Below are positions 1,343 through 24,475 of a stretch of 25,709 nucleotides of DNA, one piece after another; the stretch's first letter is position 1; each line of letters begins with the position of its first letter. The notes under the pieces are model-generated. The model saw only the letters and a list, made by a program, of their open reading frames with translations, was not told the origin of the DNA and searched no databases. The stretch is from a virus. The stretch is taken from positions 1 through 25,709 of the IMG/VR virus record IMGVR_UViG_3300030117_006648, one strand, 5' to 3'. A program made the translations under genes and the position numbers.

Positions 1343-1380
1343 AAACCCTCGGTTCTTTTCGGAGAGCCGGGGGTTTTGTC
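1343..1380 (+). terminator. Rho-independent terminator after the capsid gene
   Basis: A 14-bp stem (1343-1356 with 1363-1376, including T-G wobbles) closes a 6-nt loop and runs into TTTTGTCTTTCT. It lies 25 nt past the capsid stop codon and separates capsid transcription from the decoration-type genes. Confidence 0.85.
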
Positions 1381-1389
1381 TTTCTGGTA

Positions 1390-1397
1390 GCTAATTA
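1390..1397 (+). promoter_or_regulatory. Candidate late promoter element (GCTAATTA)
   Basis: This is a one-base variant of the ACTA[A/T]TTA octamer seen in most intergenic gaps of the virion region. It lies 110 nt before the ATG at 1500, the same distance as the matching element at 2179 before the paralogous gene. It would start the transcript just before the structured leader. Promoter activity is inferred from position and recurrence. Confidence 0.4.
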
Positions 1398-1398
1398 G

Positions 1399-1499
1399 GA
1401 ATACCTAGTTATTGGGCAGGCTGTGACCTGCTCCCACTTTACTTAGTAAGGTGCGGACATGATTAAAAATGGCTAAGAGCCAAGGGAGGGTTTCTAACT
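1399..1499 (+). ncRNA. Structured 5' leader RNA, copy 1 (three hairpins)
   Basis: The leader starts with GAATACCTAGTTATTGG, shared exactly with copy 2. Hairpin A pairs 1414-1420 with 1427-1433. Hairpin B pairs 1435-1442 with 1446-1453 around loop TTA. Hairpin C pairs 1470-1474 with 1478-1482. The Shine-Dalgarno GGGAGGG follows at 1484-1490, then the ATG at 1500. Every stem has its counterpart at the same distance from the start codon in copy 2 (2188-2288), with paired base changes that preserve pairing. The RNA structure is well supported by this covariation. Its role (stability, translation enhancement or regulation of an abundant virion protein) is inferred. Confidence 0.75.
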
Positions 1500-2120
1500 A
1501 TGGGCAAAAGAGGACCGGGTCTTGCTAGAGCGCAAGCCCTAATTGAAAATTTGAAGAGAGAATTGAACCTCTCCACATCAACAACTTTACAAAACGCAAA
1601 GCTTACAGTCGCCGCTGAGGCGGCAACATATGGCGCGGGCGCCGTTAGCACCGAAATAGCTCCACAGACGTTTATCCAAGACGTTGGCGGTGAAATTATT
1701 ACAACTATTTTAGTGGACCTAACCGGTCTTAAGACAAAGTCAACCGCACAGAGAGTTATTGGTCTTGCTTCCGGCGGAGCAGCTTACCTATTGGAATATA
1801 AGGCATCAACAAGTGGGATTTTATACAAGGCGGAAATGGAATGTCTTGAGCTTCCCACAGGCGGCGGCGATGTAAATCTTGATATTGATATCAGGGCGGT
1901 TGACGCTGATGACAAAGAGTACAATTCGAACTCCTCTAGTTATCGTGTCATTCTGAACTCTGGTGGAGATATGGCAAAGGGTCAAACCTTTGAATCATTG
2001 TCCTGCGTTCCGAATGATTCAGATTACGTGTATATGAGCACAGGCGCGGCCGAATCGGGCGACGACACATACACCGCAGGTAAAATTGTAATTAGACTTT
2101 TCGGACGCAAGACCTTCTAG
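1500..2120 (+). CDS. Putative virion decoration/structural protein, paralogue 1
   Basis: A 206-aa protein with no named family that I can assign. The N-terminus (ARAQALIENLKRELNL, then a Thr-rich stretch and TYGAG.VSTEIAPQTFIQ.VGGEI) is nearly the same as in the next gene. The C-terminal half is diverged but keeps GGAAYLL, AKGQTF and a closing YTAGKIVIRLFGR motif. The composition is beta-rich and glycine/threonine-rich, with no signal peptide, membrane segment or cysteine pair. Its position directly behind the capsid gene, its own terminator and an elaborate leader with a strong ribosome site suggest an abundant head or virion surface protein. The decoration role is inference; a fibre-associated protein is also possible. 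The start ATG is fixed by GGGAGGG 9 nt upstream. Confidence 0.6.
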   Translation: MGKRGPGLARAQALIENLKRELNLSTSTTLQNAKLTVAAEAATYGAGAVSTEIAPQTFIQDVGGEIITTILVDLTGLKTKSTAQRVIGLASGGAAYLLEYKASTSGILYKAEMECLELPTGGGDVNLDIDIRAVDADDKEYNSNSSSYRVILNSGGDMAKGQTFESLSCVPNDSDYVYMSTGAAESGDDTYTAGKIVIRLFGRKTF

Positions 2121-2143
2121 AATAATATTTCTTTTACGCTTAG

Positions 2144-2166
2144 ACCCCTCCACTAGGAGGGGTTTT
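2144..2166 (+). terminator. Rho-independent terminator after paralogue 1
   Basis: ACCCCTCC (2144-2151) pairs with GGAGGGGT (2156-2163) around a 4-nt loop and is followed by TTT. It lies 24 nt past the stop codon. Confidence 0.85.
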
Positions 2167-2178
2167 AAGTTTGTGGTT

Positions 2179-2186
2179 ACTATTTA
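2179..2186 (+). promoter_or_regulatory. Candidate late promoter element (ACTATTTA)
   Basis: An exact match to the ACTA[A/T]TTA motif, 110 nt before the ATG at 2289 and directly before the conserved leader. It lies between a terminator and the next gene, where a promoter is needed. Activity is inferred. Confidence 0.5.
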
Positions 2187-2187
2187 C

Positions 2188-2288
2188 GAATACCTAGTTA
2201 TTGGATGGGCGATGACCCATCCCCTCGCTGCATAGCAGAGAGTGGACATGATTATAAAAGGCACAAAGCCTAGGGAGGGTTTCTAACT
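2188..2288 (+). ncRNA. Structured 5' leader RNA, copy 2 (three hairpins)
   Basis: This leader aligns without gaps to copy 1 at 1399-1499. Hairpin A pairs GGATGGG (2203-2209) with CCCATCC (2216-2222). Hairpin B pairs 2224-2231 with 2235-2242 around loop ATA, with one G-A mismatch. Hairpin C pairs 2259-2262 with 2268-2271. Relative to copy 1, three pairs in A, three in B and one in C changed on both sides while still pairing. The AGGGAGGGTTTCTAACTATGGG block around the ribosome site and start is identical in both copies. Confidence 0.75.
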
Positions 2289-2921
2289 ATGGGAAGTAAA
2301 AGAGTCGGTCTTGCTAGAACGCAAGCCCTAATTGAGAATCTAAAAAGAGAGTTGAACCTTACAACCTCAACAACTCTAAAAAATGCAAAGCTTACAGTCG
2401 GAGCCGAGTCAGCAACATATGGCGCCGGCATGGTCAGCACAGAGATTGCCCCTCAGACATTTATTCAGAACGTTGGCGGTGAGATTGTTACGACGATGCT
2501 TGTAGATCTAACCGGACTAAAGAAGAAGAGTGATGTGGGCGATGTTATTGGCTTGGATGGCGGCGGCGCTGCTTATCTTCTTCAGTGGAACACGACAACA
2601 CACGGAATTCCCTATAAGATTGAAATGAGCTGCATCGAGGCGCCCACCGCCGCCTCTAACAACTTGCTTGATTTTGATATTATCGCCATCGACGAGGGCA
2701 ACTTGGCGTATGACGGCGATGCTGCCGGGGGTACCAACGGTGTTCTAATGTTTGAGGCAGGAGGAAATACAGCAAAGGGTACAACCATTCGAGACCTCAC
2801 CACGGGAGCTGTCGCTAGTGATCAGTATCTTTACCTATGTGATGGCGCAACGTCCTCAGCCGCTGACACGTTCACAGCTGGCAAGCTAGTAATTCGCTTT
2901 TACGGAAGAGTTAGCTTCTAG
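2289..2921 (+). CDS. Putative virion decoration/structural protein, paralogue 2
   Basis: A 210-aa tandem paralogue of the preceding gene. The first ~75 residues are almost interchangeable between the two (LARTQALIENLKRELNL; TYGAGMVSTEIAPQTFIQ; GGEIVTTMLVDLTGLK). The remainder shares only scattered blocks: GGAAYLLQW, AKGTTIRDL, and the closing TFTAGKLVIRFYGR. A conserved N-terminus with a diverging C-terminus fits a shared assembly or docking region with a variable exposed region. It has its own leader RNA and terminator, so the two copies can be expressed separately. No enzymatic motif is visible. The structural role is inferred from position and expression signals. Confidence 0.6.
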   Translation: MGSKRVGLARTQALIENLKRELNLTTSTTLKNAKLTVGAESATYGAGMVSTEIAPQTFIQNVGGEIVTTMLVDLTGLKKKSDVGDVIGLDGGGAAYLLQWNTTTHGIPYKIEMSCIEAPTAASNNLLDFDIIAIDEGNLAYDGDAAGGTNGVLMFEAGGNTAKGTTIRDLTTGAVASDQYLYLCDGATSSAADTFTAGKLVIRFYGRVSF

Positions 2922-2944
2922 TAATATAGCTTAGTTACCCATAG

Positions 2945-2980
2945 AAAACCCCCTCCCACCGGAGGGGGTTTTTCTTTTAT
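2945..2980 (+). terminator. Rho-independent terminator after paralogue 2
   Basis: AAAACCCCCTCC (2945-2956) pairs with GGAGGGGGTTTT (2961-2972) around CACC. It is followed by a T-rich tail, 23 nt past the stop codon. Confidence 0.9.
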
Positions 2981-18242: not shown

Positions 18243-19463
18243 ATGACAAATTTTGAGGGTGACAACACGCTGAGCACGGCTGAAAAGTTTTATCAGCGAC
18301 TTAATTATTACATTAATGCTTTTCCGGAAGGGGCGGGAAGCTTATATTTAAAGCCAGTTCGAGACTTTCAGTATGCGGAGAACGCGCTTTATGGTCGTGT
18401 AAACGATAATCATAATTCTATAATCTTAAACATAAGCAATAATAAACAAATTCAATCCACAAATGATAATAAGAAAGACTTATTTGCGGTTAATTTTGTG
18501 GTGGACGCTTTCGAGGCGCTCGCCCAGGACTTTCAATCCGCCGCAGTGCGTGGGAAGCTCTATCCACAGGACCCCTATTTGTATGAAATTAAGGCATACT
18601 CAGCATATGATTCTCCAGACGCCATGTATGCCAATTATATTACCTCGTTAGAAGAGATATTCTTAAATGATTTTTTAACTGAATCTGATAATAGAAGAAT
18701 TTTAGATTTTAAAACCTTTTTACCGGTTTTCTTTGAGTTTATCGCGCGGATCAATACCTCGGGACCTTATACGAAGACCGGTTTTATACCTAGTAATTTT
18801 TGCGGACCCACCATTTCAGGCTTGACTATCTCCATTAGTGATTTGGATCCCTCTGATGACAGACAAAAGAGTGAGTTTCTAGAAAGTCGTAATTTTTATT
18901 ATTATATAGAATTTTTAAAAAAGCATGGCTTTTATATTACAAAGCAACGACCGTGGGAGATCGTCGCAGATATCGCAAGTCCTTTTATGCTCCAATACGC
19001 GAATAATTATGGAATGTTATCCAAAGAGCAGATATTATCCTCTTTTTATCAACGAGCCGGCGGTAGTGATATCGAGAATTTAAAGAGATTTGCCCTTTCA
19101 ACTTATAATTCCTTGACACTTAGTAGAAAGTTTGTTACAATAACTAAGAATGGCTCTCATAAAAGAGTATGTAGAAAGCCTGCTACCCGAAGTTTTTTGG
19201 AGGATAAATATTCAATGTATTATTGGGTTGACAAATACATTGATATACGATATGCTGAACAGAGAGAGCCAAAAAGTGTTGGAGAAGTTTCCTCTCTTCG
19301 AAAAGAGGTTCAGACACTACTTCCCACCAAGGGACTCCAATATGTTTTGTCTATAATAAACAACAGTTTCAACGGTTTTGCGAATTATGAAGGTTCATTC
19401 GCCAAAAAAACCTTGAAAAGAAGATCCGCAGTAGAGAACAAACCACTCAAGCCCACATATTAA
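18243..19463 (+). CDS. Conserved-looking hypothetical virion protein (406 aa)
   Basis: No enzyme motif or named family recognised. The protein is rich in aromatic residues and helices. Residues ~155-260 form the best-defined block: DFKTFLPVFFEFIARI, GPYTKTGFIPSNFCGPTISG, FYYYIEFLKKHGFYITKQRP, WEIVADIASPFMLQYANNYG. This block reads like a conserved helical structural domain of T4-like marine phages, by recollection only. The C-terminus is basic (KKTLKRRSAVENKPLKP). It follows the large baseplate gene by 13 nt with ribosome site GGAGGGGG, and its stop overlaps the polymerase start (TAATG). This makes it the last gene of the tail block. A baseplate or virion role is likely from position only. 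Confidence 0.55.
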   Translation: MTNFEGDNTLSTAEKFYQRLNYYINAFPEGAGSLYLKPVRDFQYAENALYGRVNDNHNSIILNISNNKQIQSTNDNKKDLFAVNFVVDAFEALAQDFQSAAVRGKLYPQDPYLYEIKAYSAYDSPDAMYANYITSLEEIFLNDFLTESDNRRILDFKTFLPVFFEFIARINTSGPYTKTGFIPSNFCGPTISGLTISISDLDPSDDRQKSEFLESRNFYYYIEFLKKHGFYITKQRPWEIVADIASPFMLQYANNYGMLSKEQILSSFYQRAGGSDIENLKRFALSTYNSLTLSRKFVTITKNGSHKRVCRKPATRSFLEDKYSMYYWVDKYIDIRYAEQREPKSVGEVSSLRKEVQTLLPTKGLQYVLSIINNSFNGFANYEGSFAKKTLKRRSAVENKPLKPTY

Positions 19464-20650
19464 TGCTATTTCAGACACTTGACAACAAAGAAGAGTGTGT
19501 CGGGGTCTACTGTAACGATGAGTTGCATTTCGACACTATTCCCGACGACCTAACTCATACTTGGAACTACTCTGCCTTCCTCCGAGAGAGCAAGGATATG
19601 GAGTACGCTTTCCTATATGCCCAGAAGCCTCTAGAAGGCGCCTGTCCACCCCATCTCGCTCAAGAGTGGGAAACCATTAACGGAAGAATGAAGGCGTTCC
19701 TACGTGCCTTTACGGCGGCTAAAATAGACCTTACTGAAAACTGCTTCTTTAATCTCGTAAATGAGCGCTTTCTGCGAGAGTATTGCGAGATAAAAAACAA
19801 GATTACTGAGTATGTGTTTGAGAGTCACATAAAGCCAGAAAACTATGACTTTTTGGTCGACCTAACCAGAGTGTTACACGATATTAGACATCGTAAAATC
19901 CAAGTTGACCCATGGGCTCTTCGGGATATCATACATCAGAAACGCGCGCGCCAGTTTACACAAAAGCTAAGCCAGATTCCACTTTCGTGCGACTATAACA
20001 TTTTTGGAACAAAGACCGGTCGCCTCACCACAAAGAAGAACAGCTTTCCAATCCTCACGATGGACAGGAAGTTTCGCAAGGTAATCAGCCCGACAAACGA
20101 TTGGTTTGTTTCACTTGACTTCAATGGCGCCGAGCTTCGTACATTTCTCGCTCTATCGGGCATGGAGCAACCCGACTTTGATGTACACGAGTGGAACCGC
20201 AAGCACGTTTATAAGAGCACTCTTGTTCGCGAGGAGGCAAAAGAGAGGTTCTTCGCTTGGCTTTACAACCCTCAATCTCGGGACATGATGAGCGACAGGG
20301 CTTATGATAAGCAGAAAGTCATCGATGAATACTGGGTAAACGGAGCAATTAGCAACCCTTTCGACAGAACCATTCCAGCTGACGGGCACCACGCAATGAG
20401 CTATCTGATTCAGAGCACTTGTTCTGATATTGTGCTGCGCCAGATGATTAAGTTAGATAAATATCTTCAAAATAGGGCATCTCATGTCGCGTTTTGTGTT
20501 CATGATGAGGTGGTTCTTGACATTACGGATGGAGAGTGTCTATTAATCAACTCTTTGGTTGAACATTTCTCAAATACTGCTTTAGGAAAGTTCGGAGTTA
20601 ATGTAAAATATGGTAAAAGCTACGGGGATATGAGAGAATGGAAACAATAA
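19463..20650 (+). CDS. Compact family A DNA polymerase (no exonuclease domain)
   Basis: A 395-aa DNA polymerase I-type catalytic domain. Conserved motifs in order: TKTGRLTT (183-190, equivalent of TGRLSS); motif A DFNGAELR (219-226, catalytic D219); motif B R256-x3-K260-x3-F264-x3-Y268, exactly the O-helix spacing of Taq R659/K663/F667/Y671, but with the two motif glycines replaced by Ala and Asn; SYLIQSTCSDIV (313-324); and motif C VHDEV (346-350, catalytic D348). Both metal-binding aspartates are present, so activity is expected. The spacings A-B and B-C are shorter than in Taq. The first ~170 residues hold no 3'-5' or 5'-3' exonuclease motif. T4 itself uses a family B enzyme. ATG overlaps the upstream stop codon (TAATG) and no Shine-Dalgarno is visible, so translation is probably coupled. 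Confidence 0.85.
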   Translation: MLFQTLDNKEECVGVYCNDELHFDTIPDDLTHTWNYSAFLRESKDMEYAFLYAQKPLEGACPPHLAQEWETINGRMKAFLRAFTAAKIDLTENCFFNLVNERFLREYCEIKNKITEYVFESHIKPENYDFLVDLTRVLHDIRHRKIQVDPWALRDIIHQKRARQFTQKLSQIPLSCDYNIFGTKTGRLTTKKNSFPILTMDRKFRKVISPTNDWFVSLDFNGAELRTFLALSGMEQPDFDVHEWNRKHVYKSTLVREEAKERFFAWLYNPQSRDMMSDRAYDKQKVIDEYWVNGAISNPFDRTIPADGHHAMSYLIQSTCSDIVLRQMIKLDKYLQNRASHVAFCVHDEVVLDITDGECLLINSLVEHFSNTALGKFGVNVKYGKSYGDMREWKQ

Positions 20651-21561: not shown

Positions 21562-22314
21562 ATGGGAATCAATCTAGACAAGATGCGAGCAAAGCTCGCC
21601 GCAGTGCAGAACAATGGAGATAGCTCCAAGAGTGCTTTCTGGCGCCCGAACGACGGCAACCAGACAATTCGTGTGGTGCCTACCGAAGACGGTGACCCCT
21701 TCAAGGAGGTCTATTTTCATTATAACGTAACTAAGGGCGGTATTCTATGCCCTAAGCGTAACTTCGGGGACAGTTGTCCTGTCTGTGATTTCGCGTCCAA
21801 TCTATGGCGTGAAGGAGCGGATAAGAATGACGAGTCCTCCAAGAAGATGGCAAAGAGCCTCTTTGTGCGACAGCGCTTCTTTAGCCCGGTTCTCGTCCGT
21901 GGCGAGGAGACTGACGGTGTTCGCTGGTGGGGCTATGGCAAGACTGCTTACGAAAGTCTGCTCAATCTAGTGCTAAACCCAGATTACGGTGATATCACCG
22001 ATACTGATGAGGGAACTGATCTCGTGCTAAACTACGGGAAGCCGCCAGGCGCCCAGTTCCCGCAGACGAAGCTCCAGCCGCGTCGTCGCCCGTCTCCCCT
22101 TTCTGAGGATGCGGATACGACCACGATGTACCTGAATTCTATTCAAGACATCATGGAGCTTTTTGAGCGTAAGACCCCTGATGAGGTCGAGAAGCTTCTA
22201 GAGGAATTCATTTCCGGTGGCGTTGACGCTGAGGGTAACTCTGCGGAGACCGTACAGTACGCTAACAAGACCGACTCGGTGGACAATGCGTTCAACGAGC
22301 TAATGAATGCCTAA
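21562..22314 (+). CDS. 32: Single-stranded DNA-binding protein, gp32-like
   Basis: A 250-aa protein that coats ssDNA during replication and recombination and recruits replisome proteins. The zinc-binding motif H53-x9-C63-x8-C72-x2-C75 has the same H-C-C-C arrangement as T4 gp32 (H64, C77, C87, C90). The N-terminal DKMRAKLAAVQ segment precedes the core, followed by FWRPNDGNQTIRVVPTEDGD and FKEVYFHYNV, the gp32 OB-fold opening. A second core block is SLFVRQRFFSPVLVRG with WWGYGKTAYESLLNL. The end is acidic and flexible, as in gp32, for protein contacts. It is somewhat shorter than T4 gp32 (301 aa). Ribosome site AAAGGA lies 10 nt before the ATG, behind a perfect host-type promoter. Confidence 0.9.
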   Translation: MGINLDKMRAKLAAVQNNGDSSKSAFWRPNDGNQTIRVVPTEDGDPFKEVYFHYNVTKGGILCPKRNFGDSCPVCDFASNLWREGADKNDESSKKMAKSLFVRQRFFSPVLVRGEETDGVRWWGYGKTAYESLLNLVLNPDYGDITDTDEGTDLVLNYGKPPGAQFPQTKLQPRRRPSPLSEDADTTTMYLNSIQDIMELFERKTPDEVEKLLEEFISGGVDAEGNSAETVQYANKTDSVDNAFNELMNA

Positions 22315-23506: not shown

Positions 23507-24475
23507 ATGAAGTCACGCACCCCACTCCGATATCCGGGTGGTAAGTCTCGTGCCATAAAGCATATTCTACCTCTCATTCCCGAGGACATAACGGAGCTTT
23601 GCTCTCCGTTCCTTGGGGGTGGGTCGGTGGAGCTTGCTGTAGCAGAACGAGGCACCACTGTTTATGGTTACGACATCTTTGAGCCCCTTGTGTGGTTCTG
23701 GGATGCCCTGCTCCGCGAGCCCGAGCTGCTGGCTATTTGTGCCGATTCCTACAGGGTCTGGCATCCGGACTTCTTTGCCAAGAAGGACAAAAAGCCCATC
23801 CGGGGACTGCTTAAAGAGGATTTCTTGCGATTTCGTGAGGAGCTACGTCGCGCTGATAGGTTTTCGTTTGAGAACGCTGCCAAGGTTTATGCAATTAATC
23901 GCAGTAGCTTTTCGGGCGCGACATTCTCTGGAGGCTGGTCAAACCTGGCAGCGTGTAGGCGCTTCACCGACAGTTCCATTGAACGTATTCGAAACTTTCG
24001 AGAGCCCAACATAACAGTAAAGCGTGAAGATTTTAAGACTTCAATTAACAAACACCCTGACGCATTCCTATATTGCGATCCGCCATATTTGCTTGGAGCC
24101 GACAAGGACAAGCTATACGGAGACAAGGGCAACACGCACGCCGGTTTTGACCACAGAGCGCTTTATGACATCCTCAGCCAGCGCTCTGGCTGGGTGCTAT
24201 CATACAACAATTGTCAAGAAATACGAGACCTCTATGATGATTACGAAATTCGTGAAGCCGAATGGTCAATGGGTATGAGTAATGTAGACGGCGCCGCATT
24301 GCGACCAGTCAGGGCTGCTTTAGAGAGAATTGATAATGATTTTAAAGCTCTTATAAAAAACGAAAACCTGCTCGCCAAAGAGACAGCTCAGCAATCGCGC
24401 AAATTACTGAATGAATGCTGGGATGCGAATAAAAAAAAGATGGCTAAGTCATCAGAGATACTAATTATAGGTTGA
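23507..24475 (+). CDS. DNA adenine-N6 methyltransferase, D12 class (Dam-like)
   Basis: A 322-aa enzyme transferring a methyl group from S-adenosylmethionine to adenine N6 in DNA. The alpha-class motif order is clear: motif X RYPGGKSR (8-15), motif I SPFLGGGSVEL (33-43) for AdoMet binding, the NRSSFSGATFSGGW block (131-144), and catalytic motif IV DPPY (191-194). The typical terminal strand SSEILIIG closes the protein. Residues ~265-310 form an extra helical segment that is lysine- and glutamate-rich. Target specificity is not readable, though GATC is the commonest target of this class. It is translationally coupled to its neighbours (2-nt gap before; TGATG overlap after). It probably protects phage DNA from host restriction or modifies it together with the neighbouring unknown gene. 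Confidence 0.88.
   Translation: MKSRTPLRYPGGKSRAIKHILPLIPEDITELCSPFLGGGSVELAVAERGTTVYGYDIFEPLVWFWDALLREPELLAICADSYRVWHPDFFAKKDKKPIRGLLKEDFLRFREELRRADRFSFENAAKVYAINRSSFSGATFSGGWSNLAACRRFTDSSIERIRNFREPNITVKREDFKTSINKHPDAFLYCDPPYLLGADKDKLYGDKGNTHAGFDHRALYDILSQRSGWVLSYNNCQEIRDLYDDYEIREAEWSMGMSNVDGAALRPVRAALERIDNDFKALIKNENLLAKETAQQSRKLLNECWDANKKKMAKSSEILIIG

Follow-up and report, generated by a model that had tools for sequence, protein, structure and literature searches.

Comparison of homologous sequences identifies the leader that precedes each of two tandem genes in an uncultured T4-like phage as a new, real RNA element, the structure of which is kept while its letters change. The observation originally made from the sequence of the two copies alone is thereby confirmed and strengthened, and on these comparisons its reading as a selected RNA structure is right. 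To our knowledge, few structured leaders of phage late genes have been described with strong support from covariation; our searches of Rfam and of the literature recovered no structured leader at the gp23 locus of these T4-like phages. Comparison establishes the structure, and we infer the function: with moderate confidence, and from sequence-derived evidence, we favor a structured 5' UTR of a single-gene late unit that would protect the 5' end of the message and keep the Shine-Dalgarno sequence open in the linker ACAUGAUUANAAA. The leader marks one exact spot in many uncultured genomes, where it can serve as a landmark for a capsid-surface protein whose body is interchangeable, and it provides a testable RNA for how phages make much capsid protein late in infection.

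The duplicated unit downstream of gp23

The stretch of DNA analyzed here in its entirety (hereafter the window) is a 25.7-kb uncultured viral contig with the structural region of a T4-like phage: gp23 lies at its left end (Pfam Gp23), followed by two similar genes and then by head, tail and baseplate genes. The closest matches to its gp23 come from an uncultured phage, Flavobacterium phages, a Microcystis phage and Rhodothermus phage RM378, and these nearest matches place the phage near the Far-T4 group, for the marine members of which Bacteroidetes hosts have been suggested (PMC7198788). Downstream of the baseplate-like genes, a frame of only 395 residues (19463-20650) matches the C-terminal part of family A DNA polymerase (PF00476), and the right end of the window contains genes for a gp32-like single-strand binding protein (21562-22314) and a D12-class adenine methyltransferase (23507-24475).

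The two genes that follow gp23 are each preceded by a 110-nt leader (1390-1499 and 2179-2288); we reproduced the gapless alignment of the two leaders claimed in the sequence-only reading, and find them to be 75% identical. The features of the locus are as follows:

1343..1376, + strand: terminator-like hairpin after gp23 and before leader 1 (hairpin and T-run, 15 pairs)
1391..1397, + strand: late-promoter box CTAATTA of copy 1, putative promoter (box conservation and strand bias)
1404..1411, + strand: 5' segment CCUAGUUA of copy 1, complementary to the start region 1495-1503; possible long-range pairing
1415..1432, + strand: hairpin A of copy 1, 6 pairs; covariation in 56 and in 13 leaders
1433..1456, + strand: hairpin B of copy 1, 10 pairs and one bulged base
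1457..1469, + strand: conserved linker ACAUGAUUAAAAA of copy 1, predicted unpaired
1470..1482, + strand: hairpin C of copy 1, an optional element absent in the relatives L003, L076 and L201
1484..1490, + strand: Shine-Dalgarno sequence GGGAGGG of copy 1
1500..2120, + strand: gene 1, candidate tagged capsid-surface protein (tag boundary, predicted structure, place after gp23)
1500-1565, + strand: tag of gene 1, codons 1-22
2145..2166, + strand: terminator-like hairpin CCCCTCC-ACTA-GGAGGGG with TTTT between the two genes, read from the sequence
2180..2186, + strand: late-promoter box CTATTTA of copy 2, putative promoter (box conservation and strand bias)
2193..2200, + strand: 5' segment CCUAGUUA of copy 2, complementary to the start region 2284-2292
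2204..2221, + strand: hairpin A of copy 2 (folding and covariation)
2222..2245, + strand: hairpin B of copy 2, one pair lost
2246..2258, + strand: conserved linker ACAUGAUUAUAAA of copy 2, predicted unpaired
2259..2271, + strand: hairpin C of copy 2, optional element
2273..2279, + strand: Shine-Dalgarno sequence GGGAGGG of copy 2
2289..2921, + strand: gene 2, paralogue of gene 1 (proteins 58% identical)
2289-2354, + strand: tag codons of gene 2
2944..2973, + strand: terminator-like hairpin after gene 2

As had been proposed, the three hairpins lie at identical offsets from the start codon in both copies, and A, B and C form in each copy when it is folded alone. The pair changes originally read between the two copies were also recovered, namely three double changes and a G-U replaced by G-C in hairpin A, three double changes and one lost pair in hairpin B, and one double change and one lost pair in hairpin C. 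Hairpins A and B directly abut in the window copies (1415..1432 and 1433..1456 in copy 1), and a possible seventh pair of hairpin A in copy 1 (1414-1433) competes with hairpin B. The folding energies of the two copies are only modestly unusual on their own (z = -1.5 and -2.2).

Examination of the sequence upstream of the folds revealed the box CTANTTA before all 50 of the 50 leaders found by protein search, as against 9% of random pieces, and the extended form CTANTTAY shows a strand bias of 216 to 18 over 640 kb. The box also precedes other genes of the window (2987, 3383, 6056, 9152 and 10940), and a CTAGTTA inside the window-type leaders matches the promoter pattern too. Like the T4 late box TATAAATA, CTANTTA is short, AT-rich, on the coding strand and upstream of late genes, although the letters differ; by this analogy CTANTTA(Y) is probably the late promoter of this phage group. 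The T4 late box lies about one helical turn before the transcription start (PMC2988020). Judging only from the upstream CTANTTA box, the transcripts would contain the fold. Given the terminator-like hairpins together with the promoter boxes, each of the two genes probably forms a late unit by itself, and the leader was probably copied along with the rest of that unit when it was duplicated in tandem.

Homologous leaders and conservation of pairing

A DNA pattern derived from the leader (GAATACCTAGTTATTG) recovered 29 loci, of which only three close relatives (L003, L009 and L029) were useful; nearly all of the loci were unrelated, most of them encoding glycine-rich proteins. When both window copies were used as protein queries, in a search that also drew on the tag peptides described below, 80 loci were recovered, the upstream regions of which have a common architecture. 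Three further patterns brought the collection to 171 distinct leaders in all, 140 of them non-redundant, with most loci coming from DNA patterns. In all of the 171 sequences combining the linker motif, a Shine-Dalgarno sequence and an open frame, the encoded protein starts with one and the same tag (171/171); the tag was not a selection criterion in the step yielding this count, and some of the loci had come via the tag-peptide protein search. As the linker was a criterion for most of the set, we rechecked its conservation on protein-found loci, and it is present in 47 of the 50 leaders found by protein alone.

Common to nearly all of these leaders are the late-promoter box, the linker, a strong Shine-Dalgarno sequence and the tag codons. 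Around them we distinguish long leaders containing hairpins A and B, with or without hairpin C and with or without an extra 5' hairpin (56 distinct homologous leaders of this type were found in uncultured viral contigs), and short leaders without A and B, most of which have a 5' hairpin and which retain the linker, the Shine-Dalgarno sequence and the start. In the three relatives listed above as devoid of hairpin C, a stretch of ~14 nt containing it is missing, and it is also missing in most short-class leaders. Thus, the three-hairpin layout put forward initially is real in both window copies, but it is not the defining architecture of the element, given the relatives with A and B and without C, those with an extra 5' hairpin and the short form. 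Since many relatives do without both A and B, these hairpins are not essential to the gene as such. One locus, L174 (3040-4480, minus strand), has a second tandem gene directly after the stop codon of the first. This internal cistron retains the linker, hairpin C, the Shine-Dalgarno sequence and the start, and is without the promoter, A and B, which indicates that the ribosome-site module is separable from the 5' part with the promoter and these two hairpins.

The stems played no part in the selection of sequences, so that testing them for covariation is not circular. Across the 56 long leaders all but one of the 280 cells of helix A are paired, with double changes at every pair. RNAalifold run on the full 56-sequence alignment recovered helix A only, because hairpin B varies in length and is misaligned there; hence subgroup alignments were used for B. 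In 13 window-like leaders a four-helix description has 98.6% of its pair cells standard and 12 pairs with double changes; neither value was matched by any of 500 column shuffles, which leave the relatedness of the leaders in place, and sliding the 3' partners along lowered the pairing to 28-47%. Within these 13 leaders hairpin A is 100% and hairpin B 97.7% paired, B showing double changes in 7 of its 10 pairs, whereas hairpin C is 97.5% paired and yet mostly invariant. In a second subgroup, made up of 24 other leaders, pairing reaches 98.6% in A and 99.5% in B, and 7 pairs show double changes (0/500 shuffles). These compensatory changes in 56, 13 and 24 leaders bear out the earlier claim of selection on RNA structure; stem changes without pairing, the outcome named beforehand as speaking against it, were sought in the homologues and none were found.

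A covariance model built from the 13 leaders recovers the long leaders, and the short ones more weakly, at the expected place. In ten records of 46-194 kb it gives one match per record (E up to 0.012), with all other matches in these records at E >= 0.4. A mobile element scattered through the genome was considered and rejected, as motif and model match once per large record. The surmise that no described RNA family has this layout also held: the window has no match to Rfam 15 at the gathering threshold, and a permissive Rfam scan of it gave only a chance match, at the gp23 terminator (E 0.78). Likewise, tblastn searches of 50,697 phage records with the window protein and a sister protein recovered no match, a leader DNA search among cultured phages recovered five chance-level matches only (E 1), and one linker pattern searched against GTDB contigs (cellular genomes) recovered none.

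The tagged proteins encoded behind the leader

A tag of 22 residues at the N-terminus, MG[TS]KR[VI]GLARxQALIENLKRE[LI], is common to the window copies and 166 related proteins, the gene for which always follows gp23. The tag precedes at least 16 unrelated bodies, which form 16 groups unrelated by BLASTP, and beyond residue 22 the ~3-4 bits of information per residue give way to 1-2 bits and soon to less than 1. The sharp end of the tag at residue 22 and the 16 BLASTP-unrelated body groups are what one might expect of a recombination platform, in which a fixed promoter, leader and tag would let the phage swap gene bodies and the RNA fold would have no role. Such a platform needs conserved sequence, whereas stems A and B diverge and yet keep their pairs; in view of these compensatory changes we regard it, as the sole role of the leader, as highly improbable.

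That the tandem genes adjoin gp23 and probably encode capsid-surface proteins is supported by their genomic place and by a sister family. gp23 lies upstream in all 124 of the 124 loci with at least 1 kb of upstream sequence, and the start codon is mostly found 127-287 nt after it; in 12 loci the start lies at 474-1028 nt, the distance that second tandem copies would have. The window protein is predicted to have a helix at its N-terminus (6-26) and, past a stretch of low confidence (22-39), a beta body predicted with confidence. Its matches in the PDB are weak (E about 0.01), two capsid entries among them. The largest sister body family matches the Pa223 capsid spike (PDB 9ny6) both in fold (E 7e-6) and in sequence profile (E 5e-5). 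The T5 decoration protein pb10 has a helical capsid-binding N-terminus and an exposed variable body (PMC5292684), and by analogy with this plan, together with the spike matches of the sister family, the tagged proteins are likely to sit on the capsid.

The ribosome site, its possible control and related systems

In all 140 leaders the spacing from GGAGG to AUG is 7-11 nt. The Shine-Dalgarno sequence is predicted to be unpaired at 0.69 in long leaders (0.39 when shuffled) and at 0.73 in short leaders (0.50 when shuffled), while its opening in the window copies is modest (0.57 and 0.52; rank 0.75 among shuffles). The 5' hairpin of the relatives usually starts 0-5 nt after the promoter box and has a mean energy of -7.6, as against -2.0 in shuffled sequence; the window copies are without this 5'-most hairpin. 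It is because of the Shine-Dalgarno sequence being more open than in shuffles and the 5' hairpin lying near the promoter box that we favor a protecting leader with an open ribosome site. The unit would then run from the gp23 terminator through the CTANTTA late promoter, the leader and the capsid-surface gene to a terminator, the whole being duplicated in tandem in the window. Transcription would start just after the CTANTTA box, so that the message would carry the folded RNA at its 5' end or close to it; there A and B, stacked end to end, would guard that end against decay and keep the ribosome site insulated. Ribosomes would load on the open linker and Shine-Dalgarno sequence, and a capsid spike or decoration protein would thus be highly expressed late in infection. 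The internal cistron of L174, without promoter, A and B, fits a role of A and B at the 5' end of the message. Counting against this explanation are the missing 5'-most hairpin and the modest Shine-Dalgarno opening of the window copies, the many relatives without A and B, and the near-invariance of the linker, which points to a specific partner that stability by itself would not require.

Such a partner is central to a reading of the leader as a protein- or ligand-controlled regulator, wherein the linker ACAUGAUUANAAA with A and B would bind a phage or host protein, for instance the capsid-surface protein itself, and tune translation to head assembly. Besides the near-invariance of the linker in the protein-found leaders (47/50), its occurrence once per large record is as expected of a gene-specific site, and control of this kind is known for T4 gene 32 (PMC3014915). 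However, the linker could equally be an A/U-rich loading site for the ribosome or S1, and the sequences of A and B are free to vary, with neither hairpin present in the short leaders, so we consider such a regulator improbable. We hold a similarly low opinion of its most far-reaching form, a dedicated regulatory RNA of uncultured T4-like phages that would couple production of the capsid-surface protein to head assembly, its linker and stacked hairpins binding a specific protein (perhaps the capsid-surface protein via its tag) and a pairing of 5' end and start acting as the switch.

That pairing might also act by itself as a translational gate: the 5' segment CCUAGUUA would pair with the start-codon region UAACUAUGG, and the message would thereby fold back on itself, exposing the Shine-Dalgarno sequence in a loop and concealing the AUG until a ribosome or factor opens it. 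Pairing at the same place is possible in all long leaders (own partners -6.9, permuted partners -6.1 with z -3.9, shuffled segment -2.1), and sequence variants agree (UGUUA with UAACA or UGACA in 7; GUUU with AAAC, AGAC or GAAC in 3). In L033 (~480-536) the spacer and the 5' segment are both replaced, and 7-base complementarity is retained with both strands changed (CUAUGAC with GUCAUAG). In short leaders the AUG is predicted to be closed (0.14 unpaired against 0.43 when shuffled), mostly through the 5' segment, yet the own partner is not preferred in this class. The tree-based association of the two strands (p 0.03 and 0.02) is at background level, as 18% of unpaired column pairs reach 0.05, and within subgroups the pairs hardly vary and are hence uninformative. 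In the window the pairing probability is only 0.11 in copy 1 and 0.02 in copy 2, with the forced fold 0.9 and 0.2 kcal/mol above the best fold in the respective copies. We thus consider it unlikely that start-codon pairing, for which all long leaders have the potential but which is weakly predicted in the window, is the main mechanism.

A further reading concerns AUGAUUAUAAAUGGAGGG... in the linker, which could be the beginning of a short upstream reading frame controlling the gene. This frame closes at or before the gene start in 79 of the 140 leaders, often as MIINGGF, but in 34 it continues into the gene, and 25 have it overlapping the start in a different frame. The window copies would give different peptides of 5 and 12 residues, and L033 and L091 have ACACG in place of ACAUG. 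With frame and stop varying between phages, we rejected a leader peptide as scarcely credible.

Among known systems, the T4 internal proteins with a capsid targeting sequence (PMC3012670) resemble the tagged proteins in having a short N-terminal tag before many unrelated bodies and a destination in the head, whereas the bodies here are rich in beta structure, with one family matching an outer capsid spike. T5 pb10 (PMC5292684) and the Pa223 spike (PDB 9ny6) differ in that our tag has no detectable match to either and the window body family matches neither significantly, but they share the plan of a conserved helical capsid-binding N-terminus with a variable beta body, and the sister family matches in fold.

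At the RNA level, mRNA structures at start sites have been described in T4 for genes e, soc, 49 and I-TevI, along with the gene 32 operator and the split sites of genes 25 and 38 (PMC3014915). The likeness lies in the T4-type phage, the late or structural genes and the folds beside the ribosome site, soc being a capsid decoration gene. They differ from the leader in fold, sequence and gene, and hairpin C precedes the Shine-Dalgarno sequence rather than following it. Late transcripts of T4 gene e no longer carry the hiding strand, whereas in our leaders the promoter box is upstream of the entire fold including the 5' segment; accordingly, the window copies do not have the gene e/soc-type arrangement in which an internal late promoter removes the hiding strand. 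The 5' stem-loop stabilizers of E. coli ompA and papA, cited in PMC3997798, offer another parallel. According to references given there, a 5'-terminal stem of the ompA type blocks 5'-end-dependent decay, and the 5' hairpin of the relatives lies where such a stem would be expected. Hairpin A of the window lies about a dozen nt from the presumed transcription start rather than at the very end, but the two would share a fold at or near the 5' end with an unpaired ribosome site downstream of it.
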